From Candidatus Phaeomarinobacter ectocarpi (GTDB taxonomy: Bacteria; Pseudomonadota; Alphaproteobacteria; CGMCC-115125), in assembly GCF_000689395.1 (NCBI RefSeq), contig NZ_HG966617.1, forward strand, positions 940,753-1,004,752: a DNA stretch of 64,000 nt, written 5' to 3'. Positions 359-6,242 of the stretch are shown piece after piece; position 1 is the stretch's first letter; each line of letters starts with the position of its first letter. A model generated the notes under the pieces. It was not told where the DNA came from. It was given only the letters and a program-made list of their open reading frames with translations, and ran no database searches. Made by a program: the position numbers and the translations under genes.

Positions 359-2590
359 CTAGGCGTTTTCAGCAACAGCTTCTTTTGCTGCGGCCACAAG
401 CGGTAGCGTGAAAGTTACACACGTGCCTTCACCGGGGGCGCTTTCTATTGAAAACGCGCCGCCATGTAGCTCTACCAGCGAGCGCGATAGCGCCAGGCCG
501 AGGCCCGTTCCCTCATGGGTCTTGAGGTAGTTGCTTTCGACCTGTTCGAAAGGCCGGCCTAGATTGGCAAGGTCAGCTGCATCAATCCCAATGCCGGTAT
601 CCACAACATTGATGGATACATGACCCTTGTCTTCATCGTGCTCGGCATCAATGCTGACGGTACCCCCGGCAGGCGTGAACTTGATGCCATTGCTGACGAG
701 GTTCAACAACACCTGCTTGATGGCACGTTTGTCCGCATGGATCACAGGCACGTTTCCAGCCTCTGCCAGTAGGGTGACCCGCGCATCATCTGCCCGCCCG
801 GACACCATATGCATTGTTTCTTCAAACACGTCGGCAAGGGCGACATCTGCAAGGTCCAGCTTGTGCTTGCCGGCTTCGATTTTGGACATATCCAGAATGT
901 CATTGATGACCTCCAGCAGGTGCTGCCCGCTGGCATGGATGTCGGTTGCGTAATCTTCGTATTTGTCAGCACCAAGCGGCCCGAACATCTGCTTTCGCAT
1001 GATTTCGGAAAAGCCGATGATCGCATTGAGCGGTGTGCGCAGCTCGTGGCTCATATTGGCCAGGAACTCCGATTTTGACCTGTTCGCAGATTCAGCTTTG
1101 GCTTTTGCACCAGCATATTTTTCAGCCAGTTGCACAAGCTGGCTTGCCTGCGCCTGAAGCGTGCGACGCGACCCTTCAAGATCCGTCACGGTCTCAGAGA
1201 GCACTTCGCCTTTGCGGATGAGCTCTGCCTCTTGATGCTTCAGAGCTGTAATGTCGGTTCCCACAGACACAATGCCACCATCACGCATGCGCCGTTCGCT
1301 CAGGTGCAGCCAGCGACCACCCGGCAGTTTTACTTCGAGGTTCTCTGGATCCGTTGCATCCGCCATGCGTCCTGGCAGCAGCAGCTCACCTTCAGCGCTG
1401 CGCAAATCAAGGTCGCGGGCTGTGGTACCAGCAGGAACGGCGTCCCTATTGATGTTGTGGAAGGCGCGGAACTTTTCGTTCGCCAGAATGAGACGACCCT
1501 TGCCGTCCCATAGCGAAAACGCCTCAGAGATGCTTTCTACGGCGTCCCGCAGGCGGGCGTTGGCCATACGCTCACGGGCTTCGGCCTGCTTTTGCTCAGT
1601 GATATCGATGGCGATGCCCACGAGGCGCTGTGTGTTGGCGGTCAGGCCACGCCAGATCTGGCCTTTGGCGCGAACCCAAATCCAGTCACCGGATGAATGG
1701 CGCAGGCGGAATGTTGTGTCATATCCAAGTGTTCCACGGCGCACACTGTCTTCGACCTCCTGGAGAATGTGACGGTCTTCTGGGTGCACATAGTTCATGA
1801 CCTGGTCCGGGCTCAGACGTGCCGCGCGAGGCTGTTCGCCAAGAAGCGCGAACATCGGCGCGGACCAATACAGGCGGCCCGCCGTGAGGTCCCAGTCCCA
1901 GATGCCACAGCGGGCGCCTGCAAAGGCAAGTTCAAACCGTTGTTCACTGTCTTTTAGAGCGATGTCAGCAGCGGTCTTGCGTTCAATCTGGCGGACCATG
2001 CCGCCTCCAAGAACGCAGATGAAAAAGGATGCCCCCGCCATCAGAACAAGATGAAACGGCAGTGTCGCGTACCAGTCTGCAAGAGCGGAGCGAATAGGGA
2101 TAAAAACAGCGACTTGTTGGGTGTTGCCGGTGACGACAGACCGCGCCTCTATGCCCGCGGACGCACCCGGTGAGGATGTGGTACCCGCCGGCTCACGTGT
2201 GACCATCACACCGGGGCGTAGATCAAGGGACGAAATGCGAGCGTTGAATGACTGCGTATCAAGAGTGCCGATGGAGGCATCGCCGGCCAGAGCCTTTGCG
2301 AGGGCGGTCGCATGGTTGTTTGCTTGTGCAAGGCCTGCCTGATAGTCAGCGCGCAGTTGCCATGCAGCAATCCCGTTGAAGGCAACGAGCACAATCGCGG
2401 AAAACAACAAAGCCCAAAGACGTGCACGGCTCTCATCAACATCGGGTCGCAGGGCGGTGTCCGTCCTTTGATCGCGGGATGAGAATATGCCCGCACTCCA
2501 ACCGGCAATGCGACCACCAAGGCTTTGCTGTATGGGCGCCATCGGACCGGCAGATGTTGAGATTGATCCGGTAAACCGCGCTTCGCTCAT
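359..2590 (-). CDS. PAS-domain sensor histidine kinase (PleC/DivJ-like)
   Basis: A 743-residue membrane sensor kinase. A first membrane segment lies near residues 58-78 and a second near 178-198, with an extracytoplasmic loop of about 100 residues between. Two PAS domains follow (about 215-335 and 345-450), then a coiled coil. The HisKA domain has the phospho-acceptor in MSHELRTPLNAIIGFSEIM (His515). The catalytic ATPase domain has N-box NLVSNGIKF, G1 DTGIGID and G2 GTGLGLALS. The sequence between H-box and N-box (IHASGQHLLEVINDILDMSK) is typical of alphaproteobacterial PleC/DivJ-type kinases, which control cell-cycle or developmental regulators; that role is inferred. I chose the ATG at 2590 because AGGGA/GGGAG lies just upstream; the frame extends 38 codons further. 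No receiver domain is fused. A perfect CtrA-type box and a GANTC-containing palindrome lie upstream. Confidence 0.9.
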   Translation of the reverse strand: MSEARFTGSISTSAGPMAPIQQSLGGRIAGWSAGIFSSRDQRTDTALRPDVDESRARLWALLFSAIVLVAFNGIAAWQLRADYQAGLAQANNHATALAKALAGDASIGTLDTQSFNARISSLDLRPGVMVTREPAGTTSSPGASAGIEARSVVTGNTQQVAVFIPIRSALADWYATLPFHLVLMAGASFFICVLGGGMVRQIERKTAADIALKDSEQRFELAFAGARCGIWDWDLTAGRLYWSAPMFALLGEQPRAARLSPDQVMNYVHPEDRHILQEVEDSVRRGTLGYDTTFRLRHSSGDWIWVRAKGQIWRGLTANTQRLVGIAIDITEQKQAEARERMANARLRDAVESISEAFSLWDGKGRLILANEKFRAFHNINRDAVPAGTTARDLDLRSAEGELLLPGRMADATDPENLEVKLPGGRWLHLSERRMRDGGIVSVGTDITALKHQEAELIRKGEVLSETVTDLEGSRRTLQAQASQLVQLAEKYAGAKAKAESANRSKSEFLANMSHELRTPLNAIIGFSEIMRKQMFGPLGADKYEDYATDIHASGQHLLEVINDILDMSKIEAGKHKLDLADVALADVFEETMHMVSGRADDARVTLLAEAGNVPVIHADKRAIKQVLLNLVSNGIKFTPAGGTVSIDAEHDEDKGHVSINVVDTGIGIDAADLANLGRPFEQVESNYLKTHEGTGLGLALSRSLVELHGGAFSIESAPGEGTCVTFTLPLVAAAKEAVAENA

Positions 2591-2652: not shown

Positions 2653-2689
2653 CCACAATGCGAATCGTTACTGATGATTCGCAATGTGG
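2653..2689. promoter_or_regulatory. 14-bp imperfect inverted repeat upstream of the PAS kinase
   Basis: Arms CCACAATGCGAATC (2653-2666) and GATTCGCAATGTGG (2676-2689) are complementary at 13 of 14 positions around a 9-base spacer. Each arm contains a GANTC site, the methylation target of CcrM in alphaproteobacteria. It lies 63-99 bases upstream of the kinase ATG. It could be an operator or a 5'-UTR hairpin; which one cannot be told from sequence. Confidence 0.6.
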
Positions 2690-2723
2690 AGTCCGGCTGT
2701 CCACAACGGGCGACAGGGCCGCG

Positions 2724-2738
2724 TTAACTTTTCGTTAA
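2724..2738. promoter_or_regulatory. CtrA-type box TTAA-N7-TTAA
   Basis: The sequence TTAACTTTTCGTTAA matches exactly the full CtrA recognition pattern known from Caulobacter and relatives (TTAA, 7 bases, TTAA). It lies 134-148 bases upstream of the PAS kinase start at 2590, in a non-coding gap, beyond the inverted repeat at 2653-2689. This suggests control of the kinase gene by a CtrA-like response regulator. Confidence 0.6.
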
Positions 2739-2829
2739 GGGGCTGAATTGTGTGGCAGTTGAGACTCACGATTCGCCGCGCGCGAATTCCACGCACCGCA
2801 TTTCACTTCTTCTGACTCGCGATTAGCCA

Positions 2830-5481
2830 CTACGCAATCATGCGGGTTGCTATCTCATAGACGTCTTCTGACAGTTTTCCGCCATCCAGCAAATCACCTA
2901 CGGAGCGCACCGCCTCGGATTTGCGGGCATCATCGTAGACACGCCAGCTCTTGAGTGTGCCCAAGAGGCGAGCTGCCACCTGTGGGTTGATTGGATCAAG
3001 ATCACGGACCACCTGAGTCAGCAGACGATAGCCACTGCCGTCGCCTGCATGGAAACGTACAGGATTTGATCCGGCAAATACGCCGATGAGAGATCTGACT
3101 GTATTGGGCCGTTTCATGGAGAAGTCTGAATGGTCCATGAGAGCTTCTACAGCTTGGCGCGTGTCTGTTCGGGAGGACATGGCCTGCAGCGAAAACCACT
3201 TATCAAGTAGAAGAGGGTCACCGGCGGCGCGTTCATAAAAGGCATCAAAGGCAGTTTGACGTTCCTCACGCTGCATGTGCGTGAGCGTTGCCAGTGCCGC
3301 TTCCATATCAGTCATGTTGTTGGCGGAAGAAAACTGTACAGCTGCAATCCGCGCAGAGTTCTCGTTGCCCAGACCCGCGTAAAGTCGAAGGCATGCGTTC
3401 TTCAAGGCCCTGCGGCCTGCCTGGTCTGCGTCAGGGCTGTAGGCTGCATTGGACTGAAGCTGTGAGTATCGATCCAGCAACAGATCGCCGAGCTGGTCTG
3501 CGACCGCTGACTGCAGGTGCTTTCGGGCATTGTGCACGGCATCTGCATCTACGTTCTGGCCGATATGCTGCGCCAGCTCCGCCTCACCGGGGAGATCAAG
3601 CATCATGGCTGCGAATGCGGGCTCCAGACTGTCGTCCTCCAACACATGCCTGAGCGCATCTGCGTATCGGGTGCCGCGCCGTGGTCTGTCTCCGGCGCTC
3701 ATGGCGCGTGTGATGTTGACCAGAAGTTCGCGGGCATAGGTCTGGCCAGCTTCCCAGCGTGCGCAAGGGTCCGGATCATGGGCCATCCGGAACAGCCAGT
3801 CTTTGTCTCCACCATTCGTGGTGAGTTTTACCGGCGCCGAGAATCCGCGAAGGACCGAAAGGACCGGCGGCGAGGTGACCTTCTCGAAGGTAAAAGTCTG
3901 TTCGTATCCCGTCAGCTCAACAACGGTTTGCGTCTCTGCGTCGCCGTCTGTGTTCGTGTCGGAAAGATGCAGCGGCAAGCTCGTGCCGTCCTTGCCGATC
4001 AGCCCCATGGCAAGCGGAATGTGCAGCGGGGCTTTGGCGCTCTGGCCTGGTGTTGGTGCTGTCGATTGCGCAACAGTCAGGTCGAAGGTTTCGTCAATCG
4101 GTGAGTACTTTCCCGACACAACCAGTTCGGGGGTACCGGCTTGATCATACCACCGCTTGAATTGTGCAAGGTCACGACCAGATGCATCTTCCATCGCAGA
4201 GATAAAGTCTTCGACGGTCGCGGCGCGCCCGTCATTCTTTTCGAAATAGGCGTCCATTCCGTTCCTGAAGGCGTCCGGGCCGATGAGCGTCTTCAACATG
4301 CGGACGACTTCAGCGCCTTTTTCATACACGGTCGCTGTATAGAAGTTGTTGATCTCAATGTAGCTTGACGGCCGCACCGGGTGGGCCAGTGGGCCGGCAT
4401 CTTCCGGGTATTGATGCGCCCGAAGCGTCTTGACGTCTGCAATGCGCTTTACCGGCCGCGAACGCATGTCGCTGGAGAACTCCTGGTCGCGGAAAACCGT
4501 AAGACCTTCCTTCAGGCAGAGCTGGAACCAGTCGCGACACGTGACGCGGTTACCGCTCCAGTTGTGGAAATATTCGTGAGCGATAATGGCCTCGACATTG
4601 GCATAGTCCGCGTCAGTTGCTGTGTCCGGGCGCACCAGAATGTATTTGTCGTTGAAGACATTGAGGCCCTTGTTTTCCATGGCGCCCATATTGAAGTCTG
4701 AGACAGCAACGATGTTGAAGACATCAAGGTCATATTCCCGACCGAACACCTCTTCATCCCATCTCATGGAGCGCTTGAGGGAATCCATCGCGTAGGCCGT
4801 ACGGTCAGCTTTCCCATGCTCCACATAGATGCCCAGCGCGACATCACGTCCAGACATCGTGGTGAAACTGTCAGACACGCAATCAAGATCGCCGGCGACC
4901 ATGGCGAACAGGTAGGCCGGTTTGGGGTGCGGGTCGTGCCATTCTGCAAAGTGGCGACCATCCGCAAGATCGCCCTGCGCAACCTGGTTGCCGTTGGCCA
5001 AAAGGATGGGGCATTCAGTTTTGTCTGCTTCCAGGCGAACCGTGTAGATGGCTAATACATCCGGACGATCAGGAAAATAGGTGATGCGTCGGAAGCCCTC
5101 TGCCTCACACTGTGTGCAGTAAACTCCGTTGGATCTGTAAAGACCCGTAAGGGACGTGTTGGCCTGAGGGTCACATTCGGACTCGATGACAAGCTCATGC
5201 GGCTCCGCCGTTACATCATGGAGCGTCAGCTTTGATTCAGAGACGGTGTAGGCATCGCAACCAAGCAGTTGGCCGTCCAGTGAAACGGAAATGAGCTGCA
5301 TCCGTTCACCGTCCAGCCCGATGGAGGTGGTGGCGGCGGCTTCGGGGTTTGGCTTCAGCTTTGTTTTTGCCGTTACCCGTGTGGCTGTCGGTGCGAGCTG
5401 AACATCGAGTGTGACTATGTCCACCAGCCAGGGTGGCGGCGTGTAGTCAGCAAGATGTACCGGTGACGGGGCAGGGGGCAT
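2830..5481 (-). CDS. pepN: Aminopeptidase N (M1 family zinc metallopeptidase)
   Basis: An 883-residue cytosolic alanyl aminopeptidase that removes N-terminal residues from peptides. The M1 exopeptidase signature GAMEN is at about residues 266-270. The zinc site HEYFH is at about 302-306, with the third ligand Glu in LKEGLTVF near 325. The N-terminal LADYTPPPWLVDIVTLDVQL and the full C-terminal helical region match the length of Escherichia coli PepN (870 residues). The frame can be extended to a TTG at 5550, but that codon sits inside a perfect inverted repeat (5542-5562), so the ATG at 5481 is preferred; neither start has a strong Shine-Dalgarno. It stands alone between the kinase and the unknown gene. 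Confidence 0.95.
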   Translation of the reverse strand: MPPAPSPVHLADYTPPPWLVDIVTLDVQLAPTATRVTAKTKLKPNPEAAATTSIGLDGERMQLISVSLDGQLLGCDAYTVSESKLTLHDVTAEPHELVIESECDPQANTSLTGLYRSNGVYCTQCEAEGFRRITYFPDRPDVLAIYTVRLEADKTECPILLANGNQVAQGDLADGRHFAEWHDPHPKPAYLFAMVAGDLDCVSDSFTTMSGRDVALGIYVEHGKADRTAYAMDSLKRSMRWDEEVFGREYDLDVFNIVAVSDFNMGAMENKGLNVFNDKYILVRPDTATDADYANVEAIIAHEYFHNWSGNRVTCRDWFQLCLKEGLTVFRDQEFSSDMRSRPVKRIADVKTLRAHQYPEDAGPLAHPVRPSSYIEINNFYTATVYEKGAEVVRMLKTLIGPDAFRNGMDAYFEKNDGRAATVEDFISAMEDASGRDLAQFKRWYDQAGTPELVVSGKYSPIDETFDLTVAQSTAPTPGQSAKAPLHIPLAMGLIGKDGTSLPLHLSDTNTDGDAETQTVVELTGYEQTFTFEKVTSPPVLSVLRGFSAPVKLTTNGGDKDWLFRMAHDPDPCARWEAGQTYARELLVNITRAMSAGDRPRRGTRYADALRHVLEDDSLEPAFAAMMLDLPGEAELAQHIGQNVDADAVHNARKHLQSAVADQLGDLLLDRYSQLQSNAAYSPDADQAGRRALKNACLRLYAGLGNENSARIAAVQFSSANNMTDMEAALATLTHMQREERQTAFDAFYERAAGDPLLLDKWFSLQAMSSRTDTRQAVEALMDHSDFSMKRPNTVRSLIGVFAGSNPVRFHAGDGSGYRLLTQVVRDLDPINPQVAARLLGTLKSWRVYDDARKSEAVRSVGDLLDGGKLSEDVYEIATRMIA

Positions 5482-5541
5482 GGCGGGCGATGTGCCCTCA
5501 GTCAAAGCGCTCAACGTATTTCCACTGACTATTGTACAATT

Positions 5542-5562
5542 CGCGTCCAAATAACGGACGCG
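5542..5562. promoter_or_regulatory. Perfect 7-7-7 inverted repeat upstream of pepN
   Basis: CGCGTCC (5542-5548), spacer AAATAAC, GGACGCG (5556-5562). It lies 61-81 bases before the chosen pepN ATG and about 45 bases past the stop of the next gene, so it is well placed to be an operator. There is no T-run, so it is not a typical terminator. Confidence 0.5.
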
Positions 5563-6227: not shown

Positions 6228-6242
6228 TTAAGGCCGATTTAA
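6228..6242. promoter_or_regulatory. CtrA-type box TTAA-N7-TTAA
   Basis: TTAAGGCCGATTTAA is a second exact match to TTAA-N7-TTAA. It is 63-77 bases upstream of the unknown gene starting at 6165 and downstream of the stop of the RND pump (6286), so it can only serve the 6165 gene. My visual scan found only two perfect matches in the window, both intergenic. Confidence 0.6.

Follow-up and report, generated by a model that had tools for sequence, protein, structure and literature searches.

The pepN-pleC region and its candidate CtrA box

Two minus-strand genes, encoding an M1 aminopeptidase (pepN) and a sensor histidine kinase (pleC), are separated by a 239-bp gap in the 64,000-nucleotide stretch of DNA that we analysed (the window). 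This gap contains the sequence TTAACTTTTCGTTAA at 2724-2738, which reads TTAACGAAAAGTTAA on the minus strand, matches the CtrA-box consensus TTAA-N7-TTAA exactly and lies 133 bases before the kinase ATG. The initial annotation had reported an exact box in the non-coding leader of a kinase gene, and both the match and its location are borne out, as is the statement that the window holds only two perfect boxes, both intergenic. Exactly two TTAA-N7-TTAA sites were found, at 2724-2738 and 6228-6242, compared with an expectation of 0.09 from dinucleotide shuffles, none of 100 of which reached two. The features of the region, with the basis of each assignment in brackets, are as follows.

359..2590, minus strand: pleC, PleC orthologue, sensor histidine kinase of 743 aa (domains, synteny, best hit)
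2662..2666, unstranded: GANTC (CcrM) site adjoining the predicted transcription start (sequence and genus conservation)
2674..2679, minus strand: predicted -10 hexamer AATCAT, overlapping GAATC (sole promoter-like site in 2560-2860; shuffle mean 0.1)
2676..2680, unstranded: GANTC overlapping the predicted -10 (sequence and conservation)
2689..2693, unstranded: GANTC in the promoter spacer (sequence and conservation)
2698..2703, minus strand: predicted -35 hexamer TGGACA (T(G/A)GACA-N16/17-GANTC in 31 of 49 gaps)
2724..2738, unstranded: candidate CtrA box, TTAACGAAAAGTTAA in the minus-strand reading, predicted position in the pleC promoter about -71 to -57 (exact motif; conserved in 4 of 4 genus members)
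2763..2767, unstranded: GANTC upstream of the box (kept in all 4 genus members)
2770..2774, unstranded: GANTC upstream of the box (kept in all 4 genus members)
2814..2818, unstranded: GANTC adjoining the pepN stop (kept in all 4 genus members)
2830..5550, minus strand: pepN, M1 aminopeptidase, syntenic neighbour of pleC (ORF, domains, orthologous loci)

The second perfect box, at 6228-6242, lies upstream of a gene for a 185-aa protein without a Pfam or NCBIfam match. It has a counterpart in G001, a relative within the same genus (Candidatus Phaeomarinobacter), and also in the genome G002, as judged by its spacing of 3504 bases to the pleC box.

The kinase carries PAS_3, PAS_7, HisKA and HATPase_c domains. 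To collect orthologues, its N-terminal 490 residues were used as the query, and the sequences retrieved came mostly from Parvibaculum-type genomes, the rest being from Aliihoeflea, Mesorhizobium and Asticcacaulis. Of 51 loci retrieved, 48 (L082-L129) were examined, L130-L132 being omitted as unrelated, and pepN is found upstream of the kinase in 45 of the 48. In Caulobacter crescentus, pepN is CC_2481/CCNA_02566 (PMC11481889) and pleC is CC2482/CCNA_02567 (PMC2529317, PMC7200025). When the pepN-side kinase of Asticcacaulis biprosthecium was compared with the source genome (G000, one contig of 3,415,905 bases, 3.42 Mb), the window kinase was the best match (434 bits; next 274), and its orthologue was likewise the best match in G001 (430 bits; next 263). 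This best hit is one-way, from the syntenic kinase of Asticcacaulis rather than from C. crescentus PleC, and in Asticcacaulis pepN and the kinase gene are about 0.9 to 2.3 kb apart. Since pepN and pleC are adjacent in Caulobacter and the window kinase exceeds the next candidate in score, synteny and the one-way best hit identify it as the PleC orthologue, which sharpens its earlier description as a PleC/DivJ-like kinase. A DivJ identity is ruled out by its score against NF050805 (243-245 bits against a cut-off of 1000), and no protein in the whole genome exceeded this cut-off, the best reaching 256. A PDB search with the kinase returned generic kinase cores, DivL included.

The reading of the box given in the initial annotation presupposed a ctrA gene, and the genome contains one. 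Among six OmpR-type regulators, three of which were scanned with NCBIfam, L060:1066-1773 scores 428 bits against NF045991 (cut-off 350). Also present are chpT (PF10090), gcrA (PF07750) and ccrM, which encodes a CcrM-type methylase with a RAMA domain.

Genome-wide TTAA pairs

The whole source genome contains 15 perfect TTAA-N7-TTAA sites. When TTAA pairs are sorted by spacing, the counts are 3 for N5, 19 for N6, 15 for N7, 8 for N8 and 3 for N9, over a background of 4.3 per spacing obtained by pooling the 39 pairs with N10-N18. The Poisson probability of 15 or more N7 pairs, given about 4.3 per spacing, is about 5e-5; N7 pairs are enriched over background, as are N6 pairs. In G001 the corresponding counts for N5-N9 are 3, 10, 18, 5 and 4, with N7 the commonest of these spacings.

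All 15 N7 pairs in the source genome are intergenic, so that an equal spread of boxes through coding sequence, named beforehand as an outcome that would count against the initial annotation, did not occur. The same holds for 19/19 N6 pairs, 6/8 N8 pairs, 3/3 N9 pairs and 2/3 N5 pairs, and even single TTAA motifs fall outside coding sequence in 65 of 120 cases (55 inside), though 89% of the 284-kb sample is coding; genes were called for these counts, and for naming the neighbours of N6 and N7 pairs described below, by a simple script based on codon usage, for which 33 ORFs of the window served as the training set. Because every N6 pair is also intergenic, intergenic enrichment is not specific and is no proof of CtrA boxes. 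The genome scan proposed in the initial annotation gave the anticipated result and proved to be a weak test, and we dropped this line of argument, TTAA pairs of most spacings being intergenic anyway. Their position would also fit a different explanation, that CtrA does not recognise the motif, which would instead be an A-tract or UP-like element flanked, in AT-rich intergenic DNA, by TTAA tetramers that arose by chance. Against this, the number of N7 pairs exceeds the per-spacing background.

Conservation at matched spacing is more telling than intergenic position for the N7 pairs. The same place and spacing are kept in G001 for 12 of the 15 N7 pairs, compared with 5/19 N6 pairs and 2/8 N8 pairs (Fisher P = 0.005 for N7 versus N6 and 0.001 for N7 versus N6 and N8 pooled); the other 3/15 N7 pairs were not recovered there. 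The conservation test covered N6, N7 and N8, leaving aside the N5 (3) and N9 (4) sites of G001. Two of the 12 conserved N7 pairs (1187532 and 3257610) were placed by extrapolation 144-176 bp past the aligned block, and the same applies to an N6 pair (over 116 bp) and an N8 pair (over 254 bp) among those counted as conserved. Two further N6 sites have an N7 neighbour in G001, where TTAA motifs cluster. The greater conservation of N7 pairs than of N6 and N8 pairs likewise argues against chance flanks around an A-tract. An N6 spacing has been recorded for CtrA in C. crescentus, at podJ P1 (PMC4287350), so the N6 pairs are an imperfect negative control, and by analogy they may serve CtrA in the source genome too.

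N6 pairs lie upstream of ctrA, ccrM and a DUF1465 gene (L154 2333895, L050 671955 and L157 2410085), at the same place in G001. DUF1465 is the RcdA family. A further TTAA-N6-TTAA occurs 29 bp before phyR of the general stress response (L047, G000:C1:198998).

The neighbours of the N7 boxes include flagellar genes, with one pair of boxes between a flgB-like gene (Flg_bb_rod 20.2 bits, slightly below the cut-off of 20.7) and fliO, and another box between fliX and flgI. There is also a box between hemE (URO-D) and a Kinase-PPPase gene. These positions are as expected for a CtrA regulon, and some other N7 boxes adjoin genes without an evident link to the cell cycle (CopB, M19 dipeptidase and a sugar transferase). 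The hemE/Kinase-PPPase box (G000:C1:3295225-3295239; L015, L081) is kept in G001, and its identical 15 letters occur in the site lists of G002 and G003, where the match is one of sequence only. The hemE and Kinase-PPPase pair flanks the origin in Caulobacter and Rickettsia. In the 20-kb stretch around this pair, DnaA-box matches (4, with 1.8 expected) are not above chance.

Promoter architecture and box conservation among relatives

The gap between pepN and the kinase gene was compared across 49 loci, comprising the 45 pepN-bearing orthologue loci (L082 representing G003) and the loci of G000, G001, G002 and G012; L083, L112 and L129, which have no pepN upstream, were excluded. Several of the 49 gaps are near copies, hence not all are independent. 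A consensus scan of 2560-2860 in the source genome returned a single promoter-like site, TGGACA-18-AATCAT on the minus strand, which we predict to be a sigma-70-like promoter whose weak -10 shares bases with a CcrM site. The arrangement T(G/A)GACA-N16/17-GANTC recurs in 31 of the 49 gaps, with TGGACA in 30 and TAGACA in one, and with a spacing of 16 bases in 29 gaps and 17 in two (G000 and G002); single-base shuffles of the gaps, which preserve base content only, gave a mean of 0.05 and a maximum of 1. Among the 18 gaps that lack the N16/17 spacing, five from the Aliihoeflea/Mesorhizobium group have N15 and 13 more, including those from Asticcacaulis, have no such spacing. The source gap contains six GANTC sites, all conserved in the genus; in the 284-kb sample, 14 of 6974 overlapping 240-bp windows, in four places, hold at least five. 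The predicted leader fold in 2591-2680 has a z of -2.3, a stability matched by 7 of 200 shuffles. If transcription begins at about 2667, a position derived by hand from the predicted -10, the box would lie at about -71 to -57, upstream of the core.

In C. crescentus, GcrA depends on CcrM to occupy pleC, whose promoter is crippled when its GANTC sites are mutated (PMC3667746). By analogy, pleC in the source genome may be subject to stimulation of the GcrA/CcrM type.

We considered two other roles for the box at this locus. It does not appear to be the -35 of a promoter of its own, given that the scan revealed no second promoter-like site and that inspection of the sequence showed no -10-like hexamer at a suitable distance. 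A replication origin was suggested by the six GANTC sites, the CtrA box and a TTGTGGACA with slight resemblance to a DnaA box, and was rejected because no lasting switch in the sign of the GC skew is seen at the locus (5-kb bins are positive on both sides, except for a slightly negative value at 945753 and another, at 995753, close to zero); the fixed TGGACA-GANTC distance in relatives also contradicts it. Elsewhere in the genome, the gap between ELM1-domain and SnoaL genes (L076 3280-3640; G000 about 2213280-2213640) has up to seven GANTC sites within 240 bp, together with two TTATCCACA and one TCATCCACA, which are DnaA-box-like, and at L070 8400-8660 a GC-rich inverted repeat is surrounded by a cluster of GANTC sites, with six in 240 bp.

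It is conceivable, and in our view very improbable, that the box serves a transcript other than that of pleC, such as an antisense or small RNA starting in the gap, or the end of pepN. TTAA pairs are identical on both strands, and no terminator-like site was found in 2560-2860, both of which would suit such a role; it is opposed by the finding that no second promoter-like site was detected on either strand of the same interval.

Within the genus the box is kept in all four members, each time 91 bp after the pepN stop, and reads TTAACGAAAAGTTAA or TTAATGAAAAGTTAA. Both TTAA halves are invariant, while the non-motif parts of the gap have diverged. Of the 49 gaps, 17 have a perfect box of this type at the matching place, 4 from a single clade have one that deviates at one position, and 28 have none; outside the genus, this corresponds to 13 perfect and 4 near boxes in 45 gaps. 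The comparison of orthologous promoters thus upholds the box throughout the genus and in part of the wider sample, with more than half of the gaps lacking it. The label 'none' refers to the AAAAG type of box: of the gaps so counted, L126 and L127 do contain a different perfect N7 pair, immediately behind pepN and distant from the kinase gene, and L090 and L097 have a one-mismatch pair downstream of the core. Gaps without the box include those of Tepidicaulis, where there is only a one-mismatch pair downstream of the core promoter, the Aliihoeflea/Mesorhizobium group and Asticcacaulis. If any perfect N7 pair within 330 bp after pepN is counted, the number of gaps rises to 23 of 49, and in nine (L084-L087, L089, L092, L102, L104 and L106) a second perfect N7 pair is located further upstream, about 55-125 bp from the first.

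The absence of the box from 28 of 49 gaps means that it is not essential to the promoter. Four orthologues (L091, L094, L095 and L099) have the AAAAG core at the matching place without the TTAA halves, so part of the conservation of the box may have another cause, such as a UP-like A-tract, and the A-tract may predate the box, which would have formed around it. Retention of AAAAG in these box-less orthologues favours the explanation, introduced above, of an A-tract with chance flanks. The invariance of both TTAA halves in the genus runs counter to it, and overall we regard it as improbable. The box is well preserved and probably a landing site for CtrA.

On the tree of relatives, the perfect box requires at least four changes; it is a quick tree with long branches, in which the placement of Phaeomarinobacter is weakly supported. 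When near boxes are included, the distance from the first base of the box to TGGACA is 24 bp in 14 gaps, 25 bp in two and 35 bp in the four genus members, L110 being left out of this count as its hexamer is not TGGACA. The shift from 24-25 to 35 bp is about one helical turn and, as a single event, only suggestive. Our tentative proposal, which falls somewhat short of an even chance, is that one fixed core, TGGACA-N16/17-GANTC, operates at pleC in the Parvibaculaceae and Phaeomarinobacter, and that the CtrA box was repeatedly gained and lost there, each time centred on the same A-tract, its distance upstream of TGGACA having shifted by roughly a helical turn between the two lineages.

Predicted CtrA input to pleC

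We consider it reasonably probable that the box is a CtrA site upstream of a pleC core promoter of the GcrA/CcrM type, at which CtrA modulates, and more likely activates, transcription. The 239-bp gap would then be the pleC promoter region, with TGGACA-N16/17-GAATCAT acting as a sigma-70-type core stimulated by GcrA and CcrM. CtrA-P would bind upstream of this core and adjust, probably raise, pleC expression; the position of the box, clear of the predicted core, makes activation likelier than repression. Timing in the cell cycle would come from GcrA and GANTC methylation. If the pathway operates as in Caulobacter, PleC would lower DivK-P and so favour CtrA phosphorylation, in line with the DivK-P/CtrA-P pathway described in PMC7003649. 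PleC would close the loop, which would be positive if CtrA activates pleC. The initial annotation had suggested CtrA control of the kinase and a regulatory loop of this sort, and both are best treated as predictions from the promoter sequence.

An alternative that we hold to be unlikely, though it deserves more weight than the A-tract and other-transcript explanations above, is that CtrA binds the box but barely affects or represses pleC, the promoter being driven by GcrA and CcrM alone. In Sinorhizobium meliloti, CtrA was detected at pleC by ChIP-seq and its depletion had no measurable effect on pleC expression (PMC4433202). The GANTC/TGGACA core is also kept without the box in orthologues, and the predicted start of the box, at -71, is further upstream than is usual for activating CtrA sites in Caulobacter (PMC4287350), which counts against activation and fits a site of little effect. 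A box of no consequence is, however, harder to reconcile with TTAA halves that are retained across the genus despite divergence of the non-motif parts of the gap, and with its recurrence at the matching place in separate clades.

Modulation by CtrA, our preferred reading, has precedents. A comparative study of 2010 predicted that CtrA controls the DivJ-PleC-DivK genes in 'cluster A' alphaproteobacteria, placed Parvibaculum lavamentivorans in the Caulobacter-like group and cited binding of Brucella abortus CtrA to the pleC promoter (PMC2877005). Our prediction is similar in directing CtrA input into the DivJ-PleC-DivK module and differs, as far as the passages of that study available to us show, in concerning another genus and in describing the promoter anatomy around the box. 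The C. crescentus pleC promoter likewise bears GANTC sites and shows CcrM-dependent GcrA occupancy; the passages of that 2013 study mention no CtrA box (PMC3667746), whereas in the source genome sites of both kinds share one promoter region. Among the matches listed in a search of open-licence literature, none dealt with the pleC box of Candidatus Phaeomarinobacter, with the cell cycle of this genus or with TGGACA-GANTC at pleC. CtrA at pleC promoters is already known from Brucella and Sinorhizobium, and GcrA/CcrM at pleC from Caulobacter; the present case is an ordinary, well-founded further example.

As a prediction, it extends the CtrA-PleC loop to an alga-associated genus and brings CtrA and CcrM/GcrA sites together in one conserved promoter region. 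The family-wide series of promoters with the box present, with one mismatch or without it offers a test bed for the rewiring of cell-cycle loops. If the proposed history of a fixed core with a mobile box is true, one kinase of the pathway would be under both the methylation clock and CtrA, and the family would provide a clear case of CtrA-loop rewiring.
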